Assembly: GCA_947626115.1 (NCBI GenBank)
Contig: CANQQX010000009.1
Span: forward strand, 1-40,059
Length of the DNA stretch: 40,059 nt
Origin: an uncultured Bacilli bacterium
Lineage (GTDB): Bacteria; Bacillota_I; Bacilli_A; RF39; UBA660
Direction: 5' to 3'
Positions 564-37,012 of this stretch are shown here, one piece after another. The first letter of the stretch is position 1. Each line of letters starts with the position of its first letter. A program made the translations under genes and the position numbers. The notes beneath the pieces are model-generated. The model was not told the DNA's origin, ran no database searches, and saw only the letters and a list, made by a program, of their open reading frames with translations.

Positions 564-2042
564 CTATAAAACTATCGCAATTAAGTTATTTGAACCTTTA
601 TTTACGATCTTAGTTACCGTATTAGATAACTTAAATCTCGTATTATCTGGCATCATATTAAGTTTAGCTTGAATACCTTCTTGAACGATTACTTCTAAAC
701 TACGACCAAATATTTCACTTTTCCAAATGCTTCCTGGATCAGTTTCATAATCTTTCATTAAGTAATCAATTAGTTCCTTACTTTGGACTTCACTACCGAT
801 AATTGGTTCAAAAGTTGATTCAACATCTACTTTAAGTAAGTGAATGCTACTAGCAAGAGCTTTTAGTTTAACACCATATCTACTTCCTTGTTTAACTATC
901 TCAGGTGTTTCTAGTTTCATATCTTTAAGCGTTGGATAAACAATACCATAACCAGTAGTTTTCGCTTGTTTTAGGGCGTTGCGTAATAAATCAGTTTCTT
1001 CTTTGCCATCTTTGTAGCTGGCAAATATCTTAAGTAATCCGGCTTTAGTAGTAGCAGTTTCACCCATTAGAGATTTTAATGTTTCATCATATAACTCATT
1101 TGGACTTTCTAGATTTATCGTAACTACCCCAGTGGCAGCATCAAGTTCACTAATATAAGCTTTAGAAATATAAGGACTATCTTCAAAATGACTTAAAATA
1201 TAATCAACATCTTTTACTTTATTAACACTTATAACGCTTTCTCTAATTTTTTCTAAATAATGCATTTTGATTTCGTCTGTATTAGATAAAACATGAACCC
1301 ATTCAGGGATACTTACTTCAATATCTAATACTGGGAATTCATATAATGCTTCTTTTAAAATACTCATGATTTCTTTTTCATTCATTGATTCAACATTAAT
1401 TGGCATAACTGGGACATCATAATTATCACTTAAAGAACGAGATAATTCGACAGTATCTGAGTTAGTTGGATGAACGGTATTTAAAACAACTATAAATGGT
1501 TTACCTATTTCTTTTAATTCTCCAACTATTTTTTCTTCGGCTTCGACATAATTTTCTCTTTTGATTTCACCAAAAGATCCATCAGATGTAACTACGATTC
1601 CAATAGTAGAATGGTCTTTAATAACTTTTTGGGTACCTACTTCGGCAGCTTCAACAAAAGGTATGGCATCAGGAAACCATGGTGTTTTTACCATTCTCGG
1701 GTTACCATCTTCATCTTCATACCCATTAGCTTCAGGTATAACATAGCCAACACAATCTACTAACTTAATATTAGTTTCAAAATTATCAACCTTAATTGTA
1801 GCCCCATTACTTGGTACAAATTTAGGTTCAGTTGTCATAATTGTTTTACCTTCCGCACTTTGTGGTATTTCATCTAAACATTTCTTTTTATCAAAGTCAT
1901 CAGTTATATTAGGAACAACTAAATTTTCAATAAATCTTTTAATAAATGTCGATTTACCAGTACGAACAGCACCGACTACTCCTAAATATATTTCCCCATT
2001 TCCTCTTGTAGCAATAGAAGATATTATACTTTCTTTTTCCAT
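564..2042 (-). CDS. spoIVA: Stage IV sporulation protein A (spore coat morphogenetic ATPase)
   Basis: SpoIVA forms the basement layer of the spore coat. It is a TRAFAC-class P-loop ATPase that polymerises on the outer forespore membrane. At 492 residues it has the family length (492 in B. subtilis). The N-terminus carries the family hallmark GAVRTGKST, a Walker A motif at residues 24-32, followed by FIKRF and the conserved PNI. A Walker-B-like LVDCVGY lies near residue 97. The C-terminus ends in the short hydrophobic tail (NLIAIVL) typical of the family and needed for membrane targeting. AGGAGAG precedes the ATG. The presence of this gene with cotE and sigK shows that the organism sporulates. 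Transcription in the mother cell (SigE) is expected from the family; I could not place a convincing SigE promoter. Confidence 0.98.
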   Translation of the reverse strand: MEKESIISSIATRGNGEIYLGVVGAVRTGKSTFIKRFIENLVVPNITDDFDKKKCLDEIPQSAEGKTIMTTEPKFVPSNGATIKVDNFETNIKLVDCVGYVIPEANGYEDEDGNPRMVKTPWFPDAIPFVEAAEVGTQKVIKDHSTIGIVVTSDGSFGEIKRENYVEAEEKIVGELKEIGKPFIVVLNTVHPTNSDTVELSRSLSDNYDVPVMPINVESMNEKEIMSILKEALYEFPVLDIEVSIPEWVHVLSNTDEIKMHYLEKIRESVISVNKVKDVDYILSHFEDSPYISKAYISELDAATGVVTINLESPNELYDETLKSLMGETATTKAGLLKIFASYKDGKEETDLLRNALKQAKTTGYGIVYPTLKDMKLETPEIVKQGSRYGVKLKALASSIHLLKVDVESTFEPIIGSEVQSKELIDYLMKDYETDPGSIWKSEIFGRSLEVIVQEGIQAKLNMMPDNTRFKLSNTVTKIVNKGSNNLIAIVL

Positions 2043-2090
2043 AACTTCTCTCCTTTTTCTACTTAATGATATGTGAAATATTTTAACTTA

Positions 2091-2250
2091 TGCAAGAAAT
2101 GGGCACAATCGCCTATAATTGTGCCCATAACGGTCCCACGGCTACCATTTTCTTGCAAATGATAAGCCACAATATAAAAATATTTTCGATTCTTTACGCC
2201 TAAGTTTCAACGCAAGATATTCAAAGAATCAAAATAATATCTTGCCAAAA
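2091..2250 (-). ncRNA. Candidate structured RNA with pseudoknot upstream of spoIVA
   Basis: The 256-base gap between spoIVA and the next gene contains an unusual set of strong pairings. An outer stem TGCAAGAAA / TTTCTTGCA (2091-2099 with 2149-2157) encloses a 9-bp hairpin GGGCACAAT / ATTGTGCCC (2101-2109 with 2118-2126) and a GGT/ACC hairpin. Beyond it, a 10-bp stem (2212-2221 with 2236-2245) has a loop at 2223-2230 that pairs 8/8 with 2188-2195, which is an H-type pseudoknot. The minus strand reading is preferred because the G-rich segments fall there and it would be the spoIVA leader or an RNA ending about 50 bases before it. It matches no riboswitch consensus I can recall. The orientation and the limits are inference. 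Confidence 0.5.
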
Positions 2251-2298
2251 GGTTAATAAAAAGCGCCTAATAAACATAATGTATATAAATATCTTTTA

Positions 2299-3141
2299 CT
2301 AATATTGTATTTGTAATCCAGTCATTCCATCATATTTTTGCGAAATGCTATAAGGATATACAAATACTCTGCCTAAGCCACTTATACCTAAAGTATAGTT
2401 TTGAGAATCAGCTAAAGATACACTTTTTACTGCATGTTGGTAAGATCCATATAATGATGGGGCACTTATAGTTGGTGTAACATCACAATCAACAGTTAAT
2501 TGTAATGCGGTAATACTATCATTTACAATATTCATTGAAATGCCAAATCCATTATCATGTCTTTGGATGTTTGTACCATTCCATACATAATCAACAGCTT
2601 TTATTTCGCCATTTAATTTATATACTTGTTCACCATTTTGAGAACCATTTCTGAATGTTACACCATAACCACGAATTCCAATAACATCAAATGATCTAGT
2701 TGCAGGTATCCCTTTCCAAGTTGCAGTTAAAGTAATATGATTATAAGTTGAACCACCTAATATAGCCATTGATATTTTTTTGGCAGATGTCTCACCATAA
2801 GCACCTTTACTGTCCAAAATAGGCATAATAGGATTATAATTTTCATATTCTTCCTCTGTCATTTCTCTTTCAGTAGTTATGCCAAGATTAGGATTATAAA
2901 TACTCTCAACATAAGTTTCTTTTATTTCTACATTACTATAATCTAAACTTTTTAATTTTTCATATTTTTCTTCGTCCATTACCATAATATATTCTGGTGT
3001 ATATGCTTTAAGAAAATTATTATATTCTTCTTCAGATATTTCAATACCATTATTATTAATAATAGATTCAGCAAAAGTTTTAATAGGTAATATAGTAAGT
3101 AAACCAACAAATGCTAGTAATATATACTTCACATTCTTCAA
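2299..3141 (-). CDS. Secreted protein of unknown function
   Basis: 280 residues with a clear signal peptide: a Lys-containing N-terminus, a hydrophobic core at about residues 5-20 and a likely cleavage after TFA (residue 24). The mature part starts acidic and Glu/Tyr-rich (about 25-105). It is followed by a beta-rich, Gly/Ser/Thr-rich half with a YGSYQHA motif near residue 230 that I associate only loosely with secreted Firmicute proteins. The start is TTG at 3141: AAAGGAGA lies 9 bases upstream, and the nearby ATG is out of frame. I do not recognise the function. An extracellular or cell-wall role follows from the signal peptide only. Confidence 0.8.
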   Translation of the reverse strand: MKNVKYILLAFVGLLTILPIKTFAESIINNNGIEISEEEYNNFLKAYTPEYIMVMDEEKYEKLKSLDYSNVEIKETYVESIYNPNLGITTEREMTEEEYENYNPIMPILDSKGAYGETSAKKISMAILGGSTYNHITLTATWKGIPATRSFDVIGIRGYGVTFRNGSQNGEQVYKLNGEIKAVDYVWNGTNIQRHDNGFGISMNIVNDSITALQLTVDCDVTPTISAPSLYGSYQHAVKSVSLADSQNYTLGISGLGRVFVYPYSISQKYDGMTGLQIQY

Positions 3142-3237
3142 ACCCTTTTATCTCCTTTCCGACTTCATTTTAAAATATTTTGTCGAAAATTAGCAACCTA
3201 TTTTAACGAGAATAGCAATTCTCAAAAAATGAGAATA

Positions 3238-4365
3238 TTATTTTTTTAATAGATTCAAAACGTTTTTATTTAATATGGCCATTGCTTCTTCGTAATTATT
3301 GCAACTACCACTGGTACATTTTATTATTTTCTTCTTTTTAACATTATATTGATAATTTTCAATTTCTGTATTATTTTCATCACATATTAAAACATTTAAT
3401 ATTAATCTATTTAAATTAAGACTATACAAATAATTTAAACCATTATTTTCAAATGTATAATTTATTGTATTTGAATCAATTAAAAAATTTATAGAATAAT
3501 TTTTTGATTCTTTAATTAGTATATTTTTTGTTAAAATTTTAAAATTATTATTAAGAAGTATTTTCTTAATTTCATCAACACTTAAGCTTTCATACGAATC
3601 AATTAATGGTTCATCATCATCTTCAAGAAAAATTTTATTATTAGAAAAATCTAAAGTAAATTCTAATTTACCATTGTATTTAGTTATATTATTTTTGTCA
3701 TCTATTATAGTTATTCTTATATATAAATTATCTATGTATTTACTCAAGTCATCAATTTTGATATAACTTTGAAAATTGGTAAAAACAATATTATCTAAAC
3801 TAGAATAGTTTTGAATAATATATTCTTTATCATTTTCTTTATAGTATAAATCTACTGAAATAGTATCATTATCTTTTATTTTGACATTTCTCATACCCAA
3901 TGTATTTATTGTTAAAGTATCTTTAATATTTGTTTCAACATAAATACCATTTATACCATCAAAATCATCACTTTCAATTCCCACTTGATACACTTTAAAT
4001 CTATTATAAGTATTTGTAAAAATTATTACTGCTGTAAATATAATACTAACTAAAGCTAATATAATTAATATTATTTTAATTCTTTTCGAATGTTTCTTAT
4101 TCATATCATTAAATTCTTTAATAATATCTTGCATTAATTCATCATCAGTGCCATCATCAACCATTCTAGCTGTTAATAAATTTTCAAAAGATACATTAAA
4201 GAATTTACTAATACGAAATAGCATGTCTAAATCTGGAAAACTTTTGCCAGTTTCCCATCTTGATACTGCTTTATCACTTATACCTAATTTATCTGCTAGC
4301 TCTTTTTGAGTTAAATTCTTTTTATTTCTAAGCTCACTGATAATATTGCCTAACTTATTATCCAT
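3238..4365 (-). CDS. Membrane-anchored XRE-family transcriptional regulator
   Basis: About 375 residues from the ATG at 4365. The N-terminal 60 residues are a classic Cro/CI-type helix-turn-helix (NLTQKELADKLGISDKAVSRWE, given here only as its recognisable core around KLGISDKAVSRWE). It is followed by a charged linker, one transmembrane helix (KIILIILALVSIIFTAVII, roughly residues 95-115) and an Asn/Ile-rich outer domain of about 260 residues with no motif I know. This is the layout of one-component membrane sensors, with the outer domain as probable sensor. An in-frame GTG at 4377 is also possible, but the GGTG there reads better as the ribosome binding site of the ATG. It follows nth after a 42-base gap and has no clear promoter. 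Confidence 0.85.
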   Translation of the reverse strand: MDNKLGNIISELRNKKNLTQKELADKLGISDKAVSRWETGKSFPDLDMLFRISKFFNVSFENLLTARMVDDGTDDELMQDIIKEFNDMNKKHSKRIKIILIILALVSIIFTAVIIFTNTYNRFKVYQVGIESDDFDGINGIYVETNIKDTLTINTLGMRNVKIKDNDTISVDLYYKENDKEYIIQNYSSLDNIVFTNFQSYIKIDDLSKYIDNLYIRITIIDDKNNITKYNGKLEFTLDFSNNKIFLEDDDEPLIDSYESLSVDEIKKILLNNNFKILTKNILIKESKNYSINFLIDSNTINYTFENNGLNYLYSLNLNRLILNVLICDENNTEIENYQYNVKKKKIIKCTSGSCNNYEEAMAILNKNVLNLLKK

Positions 4366-4407
4366 TTTTAACACCACAATTATATTTTAATACTAAAGTT
4401 AAACAAA

Positions 4408-5040
4408 TTACAATATTTTTTGAGTTTTATATTGACACTTAGTGTTAAATGGGCAATTATTACATTCGGGATTTTTACTTTTACAAGTGTATCTACCAAA
4501 TAATACTAACTGATGATGAAGTCTACTCCATTTATTCTTTGGAAATACTTTCATTAATTTCTTTTCTACTACTAAAACATCATCTTTTTCTTCAGCAAAT
4601 CCTAATCTCTTTGCAACACGATTAACATGAGTATCAACCGCAATACAAGGTTCATTAAAAAGATTAGAAAGTACTACATTAGCAACTTTTCTACCTACTC
4701 CAGGAAGAGTTTCTAAATATTCTCTATTATTTGGAACAATACCTTTTTCATCAGTTAATAATCTATTTGCTATTTCTTTTACATAAATAGCTTTTCTAGT
4801 ATAGGTACCAATTGGTCTTATAATATCTTCAATTGTTTTTAGATCTAAATTAGATAATTCTTCCAAAGAATATTTAAACAATTCTTTTGTTACCATATTA
4901 ACTCTTTTATCGGTTGTTTGGGCTGATAAGACTGTGGCAATTAAAAGTTCATAATCTTTTGTATATTCAAGTTCACATCTAGGATTCGGAATTAACTTAT
5001 CTAATCCATCCATTACTTCTTTACTACTTATCATCATCAA
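4408..5040 (-). CDS. nth: Endonuclease III (base excision repair glycosylase/AP lyase)
   Basis: Removes oxidised pyrimidines and cleaves the abasic site. The 210 residues show the helix-hairpin-helix LPGVGRKVA with the catalytic Lys at 118, the catalytic Asp at 136 in AVDTHVNRV, and a complete 4Fe-4S loop Cys186-X6-Cys193-X2-Cys196-X5-Cys202. All key residues are present. The start overlaps the end of dnaD by 17 bases (translational coupling). The first of three adjacent ATG codons is taken, and the next ones are equally possible. The dnaD-nth pair is conserved in Bacilli, which supports both calls. Confidence 0.97.
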   Translation of the reverse strand: MMMISSKEVMDGLDKLIPNPRCELEYTKDYELLIATVLSAQTTDKRVNMVTKELFKYSLEELSNLDLKTIEDIIRPIGTYTRKAIYVKEIANRLLTDEKGIVPNNREYLETLPGVGRKVANVVLSNLFNEPCIAVDTHVNRVAKRLGFAEEKDDVLVVEKKLMKVFPKNKWSRLHHQLVLFGRYTCKSKNPECNNCPFNTKCQYKTQKIL

Positions 5041-5650
5041 GCCAATTCCATTCTAAAAGATTAGTTTCTTCTAATTTTTTATTTTCATATCTATTTTTAT
5101 AATAGTTATCAACATCTTCTCTAGTCTTGAAACCTTTTTTGTGCCATTCATATAAAATAGTATCAATATATCTAATACTAGTTGCCCCATTATAAACCGC
5201 TTCTTCTAAAGCTTTTAAAATTAACTCTTCACTATATAATTTTTCAATCCAAGCTTTAATAAGTTCAAATTCCATCCCTGTTAAAGGCCTTCTAAATTCT
5301 GTTTCAAATTTAGTAAAAATATCATTTTTTGTATTTTCTTTTTCATCTTTCTTATTATCAACTTCTACTTGTTTATAAAAACCATCTAAAGATACTTTAT
5401 CATATCTTTTACCAGCTTCATTTTTAACACTTTCTAAATTAATAATTTTTTTACTTAATAAACTATTAAAAGCTTCCAAAATATTTTCTTTTGGTATTTT
5501 TAATTTTTTTGAAATAACATCAACATCAAAAGTTAAATCATCAGCATTTTCAAAATAAAGTAATAACAAAAATTCTCCTAAATCTAGTTTAAGATTATAA
5601 GCTTCTTTGATAAATGATGCTTCAATGACAAACTTTTTGTTATTACTCAT
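5024..5650 (-). CDS. dnaD: DNA replication initiation protein DnaD
   Basis: Primosomal protein that remodels DNA at oriC and during restart, with DnaB and DnaI in Bacilli. 208 residues: an N-terminal winged-helix-like domain (about 1-90), a charged linker, and a C-terminal DnaB_2 domain (about 112-185). The C-terminal domain carries FETEFRRPLTGMEFELI and the signature YIDTILYEW, which fits the YxxxIxxxW motif needed for DNA binding. GAGAGGAAG before the ATG is encoded by the last codons of cca, and the stop of cca is 3 bases from the ATG. It therefore sits inside a tight polA-mutM-cca-dnaD-nth run. Confidence 0.93.
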   Translation of the reverse strand: MSNNKKFVIEASFIKEAYNLKLDLGEFLLLLYFENADDLTFDVDVISKKLKIPKENILEAFNSLLSKKIINLESVKNEAGKRYDKVSLDGFYKQVEVDNKKDEKENTKNDIFTKFETEFRRPLTGMEFELIKAWIEKLYSEELILKALEEAVYNGATSIRYIDTILYEWHKKGFKTREDVDNYYKNRYENKKLEETNLLEWNWLDDDK

Positions 5651-27584: not shown

Positions 27585-29336
27585 TTATTCTTGTACATCT
27601 AGAATATACGGATTTGTTTTTGTTCCGTCTCCACTTGCTATTTTTACATTAGCTTTAAGATAGAAGACAGGTCTAACCCCATTGCCATATTTAAGCAAAC
27701 TGGATAAATACTGACTATCGTCGCTGCGTACACCACGAGCAGAAACATTCCAATAAGAACTAGAATCAACAATGCCCCAGCGAGTACCCAACCACTCATA
27801 AACTGATGATGAGTTCAATCCATCTTTCAAGAAATGTATCCAACTATTTTTAACATTTGTGCTATTTTCTGGATTTCCACGTGTTTCTTCTTGTGTTCCA
27901 TCGTAATAAGAATACATTATATCATGCACATACATTAAACTAATTTTTGCTGTTATAGTATTTGTCTCTGGCCACTTATATTGACTTTCAATAACTGTTG
28001 ATGATCCTAATGATTGTTGAATATAATAATTTGTTGCTTCTTTTCCGGTTTCTATGGCATACATTTTATCACCATTATAATATGTATCAGCTGTATCACC
28101 ATACATCCAGTTATGATCTTCTATTAAATTGTACCATTCACTAGCTGTTTCTCCACCATTTACATCTCCAGATTTTAAATAATCATATTGACTACTATCA
28201 ACGAAGATGTCTGTATCGGCTCCATCACATGATGGATCACACGAACCTTGACCTGGTGTCTGACCATTACTTGTTCCATTAATTCTTTTAAATAAATCTG
28301 AATTACTCCATTCTGGACATGTATAACCATCACAAGTATATGCATATGATCCAACTGTTAGAAATTTAGAATTCCAAGAAAATCCTGTTAGCGCTCCTTC
28401 TTGCAAGAGTGTTTCTTTTAATAAGTATAACTGTCCTTCTTCCGTTATTCCTATTATTCGATACATATATTTATCTATTCCTGTATCAGGATTTGTACAT
28501 GCTTCTTTAGAATTTGTTCCAAAGCAGATCCAATTGGTCATTTCTGATGAATCACTAGCTGGAAATGATGCTTGATATCTATACATTCCACCTTGGATAT
28601 CTTTACTTAAATATCCTTGACTATCTTTTGCTCTTAACTCTGCTATCTTTGGATCCGGTAATTTTATTTCACATTTTAAGTCTCTTGTTTTTATATCAAT
28701 ATTTAATTTCTTATCTGCCAAATAATTTTGATTTTCATTCTTATTTACTAATTTGATGTACGCTTGAATTTCTTCTACTTTATTGGCTGTTATATTGAAA
28801 CTTAAATCATATTCTTTTGGATTATTATCTTTTAATTCACTTAAATCTAATTTCTCATTTATTAAATTTCCTTTAAATTGTAATATCATATCTTCTGGTT
28901 TTAATGCATCAATTATTGTGTCAGCTACTGCTTCGGGATCTGTTACTTTACTTACTGTTAACTTAGCTGTACAACTATATTTTGTTGTTTCTTCTCCTCC
29001 TGTTAGTTCTATCTCTGCTATTGTCTTTGTTCCATTCTCTTCATTTTCTTCATATGATTTATCTTTTACATCTGTAGCATAATATTCTTTTGTGGCATTA
29101 GCTTGAGCCATATCACCAGCACTTAAATTTAAATGTAGATTATCTGTTCCCGATTTTAAAGTTACTAGACTATTTGTTGGAGTACTTCCTGTTATGTTAG
29201 TATTACTACTTTCATTATTTGTATTTATTTGAAAGTAAGCATAAGTAGCTCCTAGAACTAATACTAGTAATGTTACTATACCGATTAATAATGATAACTT
29301 TTGTTTTTTCTTATCATTACTACTTCCTTCTAACAT
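27585..29336 (-). CDS. Anchored surface protein with TasA-like N-part and hypervariable C-terminal domain (family B1)
   Basis: 583 residues. A short charged start (MLEGSSNDKKKQK) and a hydrophobic anchor (about 15-35) run into AYFQINTNN, as in SipW/TasA-like matrix proteins. A beta-rich half (about 40-240) follows. The C-terminal half resembles DUF6273-type C-lectin-like domains: WICFGTN, MYRIIGITEEGQLYLL and, near the end, GVRPVFYLK followed by GDGTKTNPY. The segment between EWLGTRWG and GVRPVF (about 515-560) differs almost wholly from the paralogue at 34886-36508 and has higher GC (about 44%, 27661-27800). AAGAAGGGA precedes the ATG. The promoter spacer contains eight G. Likely a phase-variable ligand-binding protein of the cell surface. 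Confidence 0.85.
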   Translation of the reverse strand: MLEGSSNDKKKQKLSLLIGIVTLLVLVLGATYAYFQINTNNESSNTNITGSTPTNSLVTLKSGTDNLHLNLSAGDMAQANATKEYYATDVKDKSYEENEENGTKTIAEIELTGGEETTKYSCTAKLTVSKVTDPEAVADTIIDALKPEDMILQFKGNLINEKLDLSELKDNNPKEYDLSFNITANKVEEIQAYIKLVNKNENQNYLADKKLNIDIKTRDLKCEIKLPDPKIAELRAKDSQGYLSKDIQGGMYRYQASFPASDSSEMTNWICFGTNSKEACTNPDTGIDKYMYRIIGITEEGQLYLLKETLLQEGALTGFSWNSKFLTVGSYAYTCDGYTCPEWSNSDLFKRINGTSNGQTPGQGSCDPSCDGADTDIFVDSSQYDYLKSGDVNGGETASEWYNLIEDHNWMYGDTADTYYNGDKMYAIETGKEATNYYIQQSLGSSTVIESQYKWPETNTITAKISLMYVHDIMYSYYDGTQEETRGNPENSTNVKNSWIHFLKDGLNSSSVYEWLGTRWGIVDSSSYWNVSARGVRSDDSQYLSSLLKYGNGVRPVFYLKANVKIASGDGTKTNPYILDVQE

Positions 29337-34849: not shown

Positions 34850-34881
34850 ATAATGAAAAAGAAAAGTTTGCGCTTTTCTTT
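34850..34881 (-). terminator. Terminator of surface gene B2
   Basis: AAAGAAAAG / CTTTTCTTT stem (34858-34866 with 34873-34881) around TTTGCG, T-rich on the minus-strand side, 5 bases after the stop. Confidence 0.75.
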
Positions 34882-34885
34882 ACTA

Positions 34886-36508
34886 TTATTCTATACCCGC
34901 CACTCTAAATGGACTTGCTATTGTTCCTTCACCTGATAATTCTATATCACTTGTTAGGAAGAAGACCGGACGCGCCGCAATCTCGACGTTCACGACGCCG
35001 CCGTCGGCGGCAAAGCCATCCGCATCCACACCCCAGGCGCTGCAAATAGTGCCGCTGAACCCATCGCGCGACATGGTCCATTCGGTCATAATATCACTGG
35101 AAGGAGTCATCCAAGTTAAACCTAATGTTGATAAATCTATTTCTTCTTCCATAGTCATTAATGCTATAGTAGAACTCATACAATTTAATTCTTTATCACT
35201 TTCAAAACTACTACAATAATCTGTTATACTCATTAAACTTATATTTCCGGTTGTTTTATCTGCCGCTTTTGCTTCTTCTGTTACTACGAAATCTGCCGTT
35301 AATTTTGCATAATTTTTAGCTGCTTCTTTCTTGGTATTTTCATCTCCACCACCCATCATTGTTTGTTCATATTCACTCATTTTTTGTTGATCTTCTGAAC
35401 TCATATTATCTGGATTTACATCTCCATATAACCATGTAGCATTTACAATTTTTTCTTTTAATTCAATTGGTAGTGTTTTATAAAAATCATCATTTAAATA
35501 TTTATATAATTCACTCTCTGGCCATTTGATATCTGTTTGATAATCATTATTCCAGGCAATACTATTATTTGCTGGTGTATTTTTTATTACTTTCATCTCA
35601 CCATCTTCTGTTACTCCTATTATTCGGTACATGTCATTACCTTCTGCAGTTGAACAATCACTTCCTAAACAGATATAATTATTATTTACTGTTTGTGTTG
35701 TTTCAATTGTTTCCTGATCCATATCAAGACTATTTACTATTGAATTACCTTGACATCTATATAAGCCATTTACTAATTCATCTGTTAAACAACTTGTTTT
35801 TTCTCTTAACTCTGCTATTAATTTTGTGTTTGGGATAAATATATCACAACTTAACTCTGTTGTATTTATATCTACTTTTAAATTTCTACTTGCTAAATAA
35901 TTTTGATTATCTTCTCTATTTATTAATTTAATATATGCTTCTATATCTTCTGTTGTATTTCCTGTTAATTTAAAATTTAAATCATATTCTTTTGTTCCTA
36001 CTTCACTTATTTCACTTAAATCTAATTTTTCATTTATTAAATTACCTTTGAATTGTAATATTAAATCTCCTGGTTGTAATACACTTCCCATATTATTGTC
36101 TTCTGCTATTTCCATTGTTACTACTACTTTGGCTGTACAACTATATTTTGTTGTCTCTTCTCCATCAGTTATTTGTACTTGACTTATCGTATGGGTTCCT
36201 TCTTCTTCACTTAAGACATAGGGATTTTCTTCTAATTCATCTCCATAATATTCTGTTCCTTGATTGGCTTCAGCCATATCTTCTGCATTTAAATTTATAT
36301 GTAAGTTACCTGTTCCTGGTACTAATGTTGCTAAACCTGCTTTACTTATATCTCCTTTAATATTTGATTTACTTGTACTATTATCTGTATCTATTAAAAA
36401 ATAAGCAAATGTTGTACCAAGTGTTAATAATAGTAATGCAACTACTCCGATTATTGCAAGTCTTATTTGTTTTTTCTTTTCATTAGTATTTTCTACTTCT
36501 CTATTCAT
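34886..36508 (-). CDS. Anchored surface protein with TasA-like N-part and GC-rich variable C-terminal cassette (family B2)
   Basis: 540 residues from ATG 36508 (MNREVENTNEKKKQ), with AAAGGAAA 8 bases upstream. The longer frame to 36565 runs through the poly-G promoter and is not used. A membrane anchor at about 16-36 runs into AYFLIDTDN. The beta-rich N-half shares LQFKGNLINEKLDLSE and YIKLINREDNQNYLA with gene B1. C-terminal DUF6273-like features are MYRIIGVTEDGEMKVI, EWTMSR and RPVFFLT, ending GEGTIASPF. Codons for about residues 478-520 are GC-rich (about 64% GC, 34961-35090) in a gene that is otherwise near 30%. Reading frame and key motifs are kept. The promoter has eight G in the spacer. 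Confidence 0.85.
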   Translation of the reverse strand: MNREVENTNEKKKQIRLAIIGVVALLLLTLGTTFAYFLIDTDNSTSKSNIKGDISKAGLATLVPGTGNLHINLNAEDMAEANQGTEYYGDELEENPYVLSEEEGTHTISQVQITDGEETTKYSCTAKVVVTMEIAEDNNMGSVLQPGDLILQFKGNLINEKLDLSEISEVGTKEYDLNFKLTGNTTEDIEAYIKLINREDNQNYLASRNLKVDINTTELSCDIFIPNTKLIAELREKTSCLTDELVNGLYRCQGNSIVNSLDMDQETIETTQTVNNNYICLGSDCSTAEGNDMYRIIGVTEDGEMKVIKNTPANNSIAWNNDYQTDIKWPESELYKYLNDDFYKTLPIELKEKIVNATWLYGDVNPDNMSSEDQQKMSEYEQTMMGGGDENTKKEAAKNYAKLTADFVVTEEAKAADKTTGNISLMSITDYCSSFESDKELNCMSSTIALMTMEEEIDLSTLGLTWMTPSSDIMTEWTMSRDGFSGTICSAWGVDADGFAADGGVVNVEIAARPVFFLTSDIELSGEGTIASPFRVAGIE

Positions 36509-36717: not shown

Positions 36718-37012
36718 AATCTCTATATAATAGAGAAATTGTTACCGATTAGTGGCGTCGCTTTTACACAACTCAAGTAACTACATCTTTTGATAATATC
36801 AGGTAATATCAAGGTTTTGGTGAAAAAGGAGTGTAATCATGAGCAATTTTAGAAAAGATACTATGCTTATTATCGTGATAATTATACTAGCGTTAATTAT
36901 ATTAAAGTTAGTATGAAAAATAAAACGCTAACCTTTTAGGTGTAGCGTCTGAAAACATCAGGTGCTACCTAATCGGTACACTTTCTATTTATATTAAAAT
37001 ATATTTTTTTAT
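36718..37012 (+). ncRNA. Structured RNA carrying a small peptide frame (copy R)
   Basis: Inverted homologue of 29570-29856. 5' hairpin CTCTAT/ATAGAG (36721-36735); closing stem GTTACCGATTAG (36741-36752) with CTAATCGGTAC (36969-36979); ACGCTA/TAGCGT hairpin; CTGA/TCAG hairpin; A/T hairpin plus TTTTTTT near 37003-37010. TTACAC can pair with GTGTAA just before the ATG. It stands alone on the plus strand between two minus-strand genes. Confidence 0.65.
36839..36916 (+). CDS. 25-residue membrane peptide inside the structured RNA (copy R)
   Basis: Same 25-residue product as at 29665-29742 (start MSNFRKDTML, membrane helix, end KLV), with silent changes (GCG for GCT, AAG TTA for AAA CTA) and a TGA stop. 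GGAGTG lies before the ATG. A 75-base block around the start is identical in the two copies. The stop TGA also indicates that TGA is not a tryptophan codon here. Confidence 0.7.
   Translation: MSNFRKDTMLIIVIIILALIILKLV

Follow-up and report, generated by a model that had tools for sequence, protein, structure and literature searches.

A GC-rich island in a surface-protein gene of an uncultured Bacilli bacterium is very probably a DGR variable repeat, probably written in trans by machinery that looks disabled today

A short GC-rich island within an AT-rich surface-protein gene is very probably the variable repeat (VR) of a diversity-generating retroelement (DGR), probably made by mutagenic retrohoming in trans, and the system responsible now looks disabled. 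The gene lies in a stretch of 40,059 nucleotides (the window), which is the entire contig C9 of the draft genome of an uncultured Bacilli bacterium (1.27 Mb, 56 contigs, 93% complete). Features of the window are listed below with the evidence on which each is based.

34886..36508, minus strand: target gene for a membrane-anchored surface protein of 540 aa with a DUF6273-like C-terminal part (ORF; DUF6273 match, 1.8e-5; N-terminal helix 3-39)
34966..35074, minus strand: DGR VR of 109 nt, equal to the GC island and to the footprint of a type-1 template repeat (TR) (alignment to a non-coding TR on contig C30 of sibling genome G011, locus L113)
34961..34978, minus strand: GCGGCGCGTCCGGTCTTC, AARPVF codons, where the VR ends on its 3' side in an IMH-like border (VR/TR alignment)
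34856..34881, minus strand: hairpin that follows the stop codon, AT-rich and similar to a terminator, best -6.8 kcal/mol (hairpin folding energy)
27588..29336, minus strand: second member of the target family, 583 aa (family comparison)
27667..27784, minus strand: older, decayed VR in the 583-aa gene, 44% GC, closest to the type-2 TR, from which it differs at 28 of 76 non-adenine positions (TR comparison)

The GC island and its template

The first-pass annotation had described a GC-rich island at 34961-35090 inside an intact reading frame, and both observations hold. This interval contains 63.8% G+C, the whole gene 31% and the window 26.6%; the maximal-scoring GC segment (34964-35087, 66% GC) has a score of 34.2, far above the best of 200 shuffles (11.8), and the island is by a wide margin the GC-richest stretch of 100-150 bp in the contig. 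The minus-strand ORF (34889-36508) runs unbroken through it. The footprint defined by the template is slightly shorter than the interval noted at first.

A TR sequence was predicted from the VRs of the window gene, of a paralogue on contig C14 and of a gene on contig C28 of G011, and the genus was searched with it. The top match was a natural non-coding stretch on contig C30 of G011 (92% over 106 bp). Compared with this type-1 TR of the sibling, the species' own type-1 TR not having been found, the window VR is changed at 23 of 36 TR adenines and at 6 of 68 other bases (Fisher 5.7e-9; one of two TRs tried). Four of the six non-adenine changes are also present in the C14 VR of the same genome and are therefore best read as TR differences between the two species. 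Within G011, the C28 VR differs from the C30 TR at 16 of 36 adenines and one of 68 other bases, and the C43 VR differs from a type-2 TR at 22 of 36 adenines and none of 76 other bases over 112 bp; when nine VR/TR pairs from eight genomes were considered, 129 of 147 differences fell on TR adenines. All 36 adenines of the C30 TR occupy codon position 1 or 2 of the VR frame. The concentration of changes at adenines bears out the DGR variable region that had been proposed.

At the 3' border the TR has GCGGCGCGTCCAGCCCAC and VR/TR identity stops directly after CGTCC(A/G)G: following CGTCC(A/G), the VR reads GTCTTC whereas the TR reads GCCCAC, and the same switch occurs in other VR/TR pairs of the genus. 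By its sequence, the 3' border of the window VR resembles an IMH.

The G011 C30 TR (L113 1427-1606) stands alone between ordinary genes, with no RT or Avd gene beside it in the 4.8 kb read, and its 3' flank (AAGATAGAGGACAAAGATTATCTATGA) is conserved and partly common to the RT-linked TR. A search of the draft assembly that contains the window by pattern, with the predicted TR and with the flank of the sibling's TR revealed no type-1 TR, and the place on contig C25 that corresponds to the sibling's TR site contains no TR. No complete TR of either type was found in this assembly, the sole remnant being a 3' portion of type 2 with which contig C21 begins; siblings have complete TRs.

Retrohoming from a GC-rich template had been suggested as the source of the island; the retrohoming stands, but the template is only moderately GC-rich. 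TRs contain 46-48% GC and 32-35% A, their non-A positions being 71% G+C as compared with 48% in host coding sequence, and 18 of the 23 changed adenines in the window VR became G. The GC content of the island is therefore high because some 70% of the non-A positions of the TR are G or C and because changed adenines were mostly replaced by G. Randomising all TR adenines predicts 63.5-64.3% GC, close to the 64-66% observed in the island. Avoidance of A at those mutable codon positions that have to stay fixed probably explains why GCG, CGC and GTG replace GCA, AGA and GTA, but it does not account for the excess of G+C over T. The GC-rich codons of the island, unlike those of the host, could also suggest that the segment arrived by horizontal transfer or gene conversion from a high-GC organism. 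However, changes cluster at TR adenines, a TR of 46% GC exists in a sibling of the same genus and the GC content predicted from randomisation fits, so that no such donor is needed and its involvement is improbable in the extreme.

The event at the window gene was probably mutagenic retrohoming in trans. RNA of a type-1 TR would have been reverse-transcribed with random bases placed opposite template adenines, and the mutated cDNA would have replaced about 109 bp of a remote surface-protein gene, the replacement ending at the IMH-like border within the ARPV codons. The RT cassette would in this way have acted on a distant target.

Elsewhere in the window, an inverted-repeat unit (36745-36990), for which no Rfam match was obtained, contains a plus-strand ORF (36839-36916) for a hydrophobic 25-aa peptide, MSNFRKDTMLIIVIIILALIILKLV, which resembles small proteins of the type I toxin kind. 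Rfam and tRNA searches of the window gave no match.

The surface-gene family and the history of its VRs

The window gene is a member of a large paralogous family whose proteins start with a membrane helix, some of them also matching DUF6273. From stretches around paralogues, 27 ORFs were collected that have RP[VAIL] close to the C-terminus, and island counts are accordingly lower bounds. In 16 of these 27 frames, including the window gene, the 120 bp around the motif have 52-66% GC as compared with 28-32% in the gene bodies, which means that at least 15 other paralogues carry an island at the equivalent position towards the C-terminus, ahead of RPV[FY]. An assembly chimera had been considered in the first-pass annotation, and a draft of 56 contigs makes such an artefact conceivable in principle. 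Yet the reading frame and the RPVF context are intact, islands recur at one and the same protein position in numerous paralogues, both on separate contigs and in independently obtained genomes of other species, and the changes are concentrated at template adenines, so that a chimera can practically be dismissed. Relatives of the target protein were not found in viral contigs. As to a C-type-lectin-like fold of the variable domain, an AlphaFold model obtained from few input sequences has a pLDDT below 50 in the C-terminal part, and no sequence match to solved structures was detected. On the cell surface, the variable segment may serve to bind ligands.

Thirteen VRs of the genome pass a Bonferroni threshold for adenine bias (28 VRs × 2 TRs). 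Among type-2 VRs, no pair shares letters at adenine sites beyond column shuffles (mean 32%; the best pair reaches 53%, and the 95% limit from shuffling is 56%). The VRs of the window and of C14 agree at 28% of such letters. As adenine-site letters are not shared beyond shuffles, the VRs are separate products and not copies of one mutated VR. The GC content of VRs drops with increasing non-adenine divergence (Spearman -0.76, p 3e-6), which we read as amelioration after homing stops: once homing had ended, VRs would drift toward the AT-rich host, and older paralogues would hence show weaker islands. The window VR is fresh, much fresher than the VRs of its closest paralogues on C42 and C32.

The window gene itself is a mosaic, its nearest relatives differing between body and VR: in the 3' tail it shares 92-95% identity with C42 and C32, and the VR is nearer to that of C14. 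In C14, in C49 and in cassettes of siblings, the VR is followed by a hairpin of about -21 to -22 kcal/mol; such a GC-rich hairpin was present in 10 of the 20 sibling loci fetched and, in the genome of the window, only after C14 and C49. It is absent after the window VR and likewise after those of C42 and C32. In BPP-1, efficient homing requires a GC-rich hairpin after the VR (PMC3240598). Either homing took place without the hairpin, or the hairpin was recently lost in each of these genes, or gene conversion brought in the VR from a donor that has since been overwritten. The last of these corresponds to a rather unlikely scenario in which the DGR made the VR at another target, for example a hairpin-bearing one, and paralogue gene conversion then copied it into the window gene. 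Such a detour would suit the fact that the window gene, C42 and C32 all lack the hairpin although, of the three VRs, that of the window is by far the freshest. Against it, no VR read in the genome has the same adenine-site letters (C14 agrees at 28%, and no type-2 pair exceeds shuffles), so that the donor must since have been overwritten or must lie in the unread or missing part of the genome. Whether reached directly by retrohoming in trans, as we prefer, or by conversion, a VR that is fresh in spite of the missing hairpin is the most interesting point of this locus.

DGR machinery in this and related genomes

A DGR RT was matched in 17 of 60 genomes, including that of the window, all of one genus. 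The assemblies G011 and G061 are seemingly one, with the same contigs and the same places. In siblings, the order of the locus is target, often a GC hairpin, at least one TR, accessory gene, Avd and RT. The cassette closest to that of the window's genome is located on contig C43 of G011; it has a type-2 TR, the end and 3' flank of which are nearly identical to the remnant on C21. The Avd of G011 has a PHROG hit to 'Avd protein of DGR' (4e-16), and the intact RT orthologue of G011 (378 aa) has its best solved match in 8ub7 (1e-22), which we take to be the BPP-1 DGR enzyme. In a different DGR cassette of G011, on contig C3 (L109 1912-3899), target and accessory genes are separated by a tandem array of four units, each about 490 bp long and bearing a TR.

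In the genome of the window, contig C21 contains a MutS_I-like accessory gene (2e-5), a bAvd gene (4e-8) and an RT gene (RVT_1), the last being interrupted by an insertion that separates LPIG from NMTSQ:

L039 (C21) 1875-5278, inside the RT motif LPIG/NMTSQ: recombinase-in-trio element, present once in the genome, which encodes three tyrosine recombinases and is bounded by perfect terminal inverted repeats of 87 bp

GxxxSQ instead of QGxxSP, as in the motif of this RT, is typical of DGR RTs. The contig starts with the 3' part of the type-2 TR, AACAACAACAACTTGAATAATGCGAACGGCGTGCGGCCTGTA, with AT-rich sequence upstream in place of the remainder. This abrupt replacement (L039 1-70) may be an insertion or deletion in the TR or an artefact of the contig end. 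A second RT, on contig C10, was considered as the DGR enzyme and rejected: it has a GIIM domain and is the maturase of a group II intron. On contig C14 (L083 3400-4015) a remnant of a cassette consists of target, GC hairpin and MutS-like gene followed by a GntR gene, without Avd and RT; a GntR gene also follows a target gene in G011 (L180).

With its RT split, one cassette devoid of Avd and RT, and the search for a full TR negative, the DGR in this assembly looks disabled now. It is likely that the system is inactive or polymorphic in the population, assembly gaps being a caveat. In Thiohalocapsa PB-PSB1, intact and transposon-interrupted RT variants occur side by side (PMC10907252).

Comparison with known DGRs and significance

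The DGR mechanism is established (PMC8144416, PMC3240598), and the present system is a further case of it; what is unusual is the large dispersed repertoire, the stand-alone TR and the fresh target without a hairpin. With the DGR of BPP-1, the Bordetella phage prototype (PMC3240598), it has in common adenine-specific TR/VR changes, a 3' border that is IMH-like and not the same in VR and TR, the combination of Avd and RT, and a GC-rich hairpin after cassette-linked VRs. Unlike that of BPP-1, it is cellular and chromosomal, with many dispersed targets, an additional MutS-like accessory gene and a split RT, and the window target is remote and lacks the hairpin. As in Treponema denticola (PMC4891356), one system serves several remote surface-protein targets, and targets are left after loss of core parts. 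However, that species has two to seven dispersed surface-lipoprotein targets and an HRDC accessory (PMC4891356), whereas here 27 paralogues were read, at least 16 of them with islands, and the accessories are MutS_I/MSL and Avd. PF01624 (MSL) is already known as a DGR accessory (PMC10053308).

Thiohalocapsa PB-PSB1 (PMC10907252) likewise has several TR classes, targets explained by action in trans and mobile elements in RT genes, but its genome is large and its nine loci and 15 targets are associated with conflict systems, in contrast to the membrane-anchored DUF6273-like proteins, the 1.27-Mb genome and the recombinase trio as interrupter described here. Similar to remote variable proteins of cyanobacteria (PMC7517822), VRs are found away from the RT and near the 3' ends of genes; the cyanobacterial targets are mostly cytosolic C-type-lectin regulators (PMC7517822), whereas those described here are membrane-anchored surface proteins.

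A remote DGR target can be recognised from base composition alone, as randomised adenines create a GC island in an AT-rich host. Surveys confined to the neighbourhood of the RT overlook such targets, and the authors of PMC8144416 acknowledge for their own method that targets away from the RT are missed. For 1.27 Mb, this is a large dispersed surface repertoire marked by a DGR, with VRs of graded age. We tentatively suggest, as a possible picture, that a small-genome lineage of gut Bacilli has a distributed DGR in which free-standing TRs and one RT cassette would overwrite a large dispersed surface family in trans, including targets without hairpins, and in which hairpin-independent targeting, or diversification followed by conversion, may build a repertoire of graded age that outlasts interruption of the RT. 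The genome thus offers a natural test of whether homing can occur into targets without a hairpin and of what becomes of a repertoire after its RT has been interrupted.
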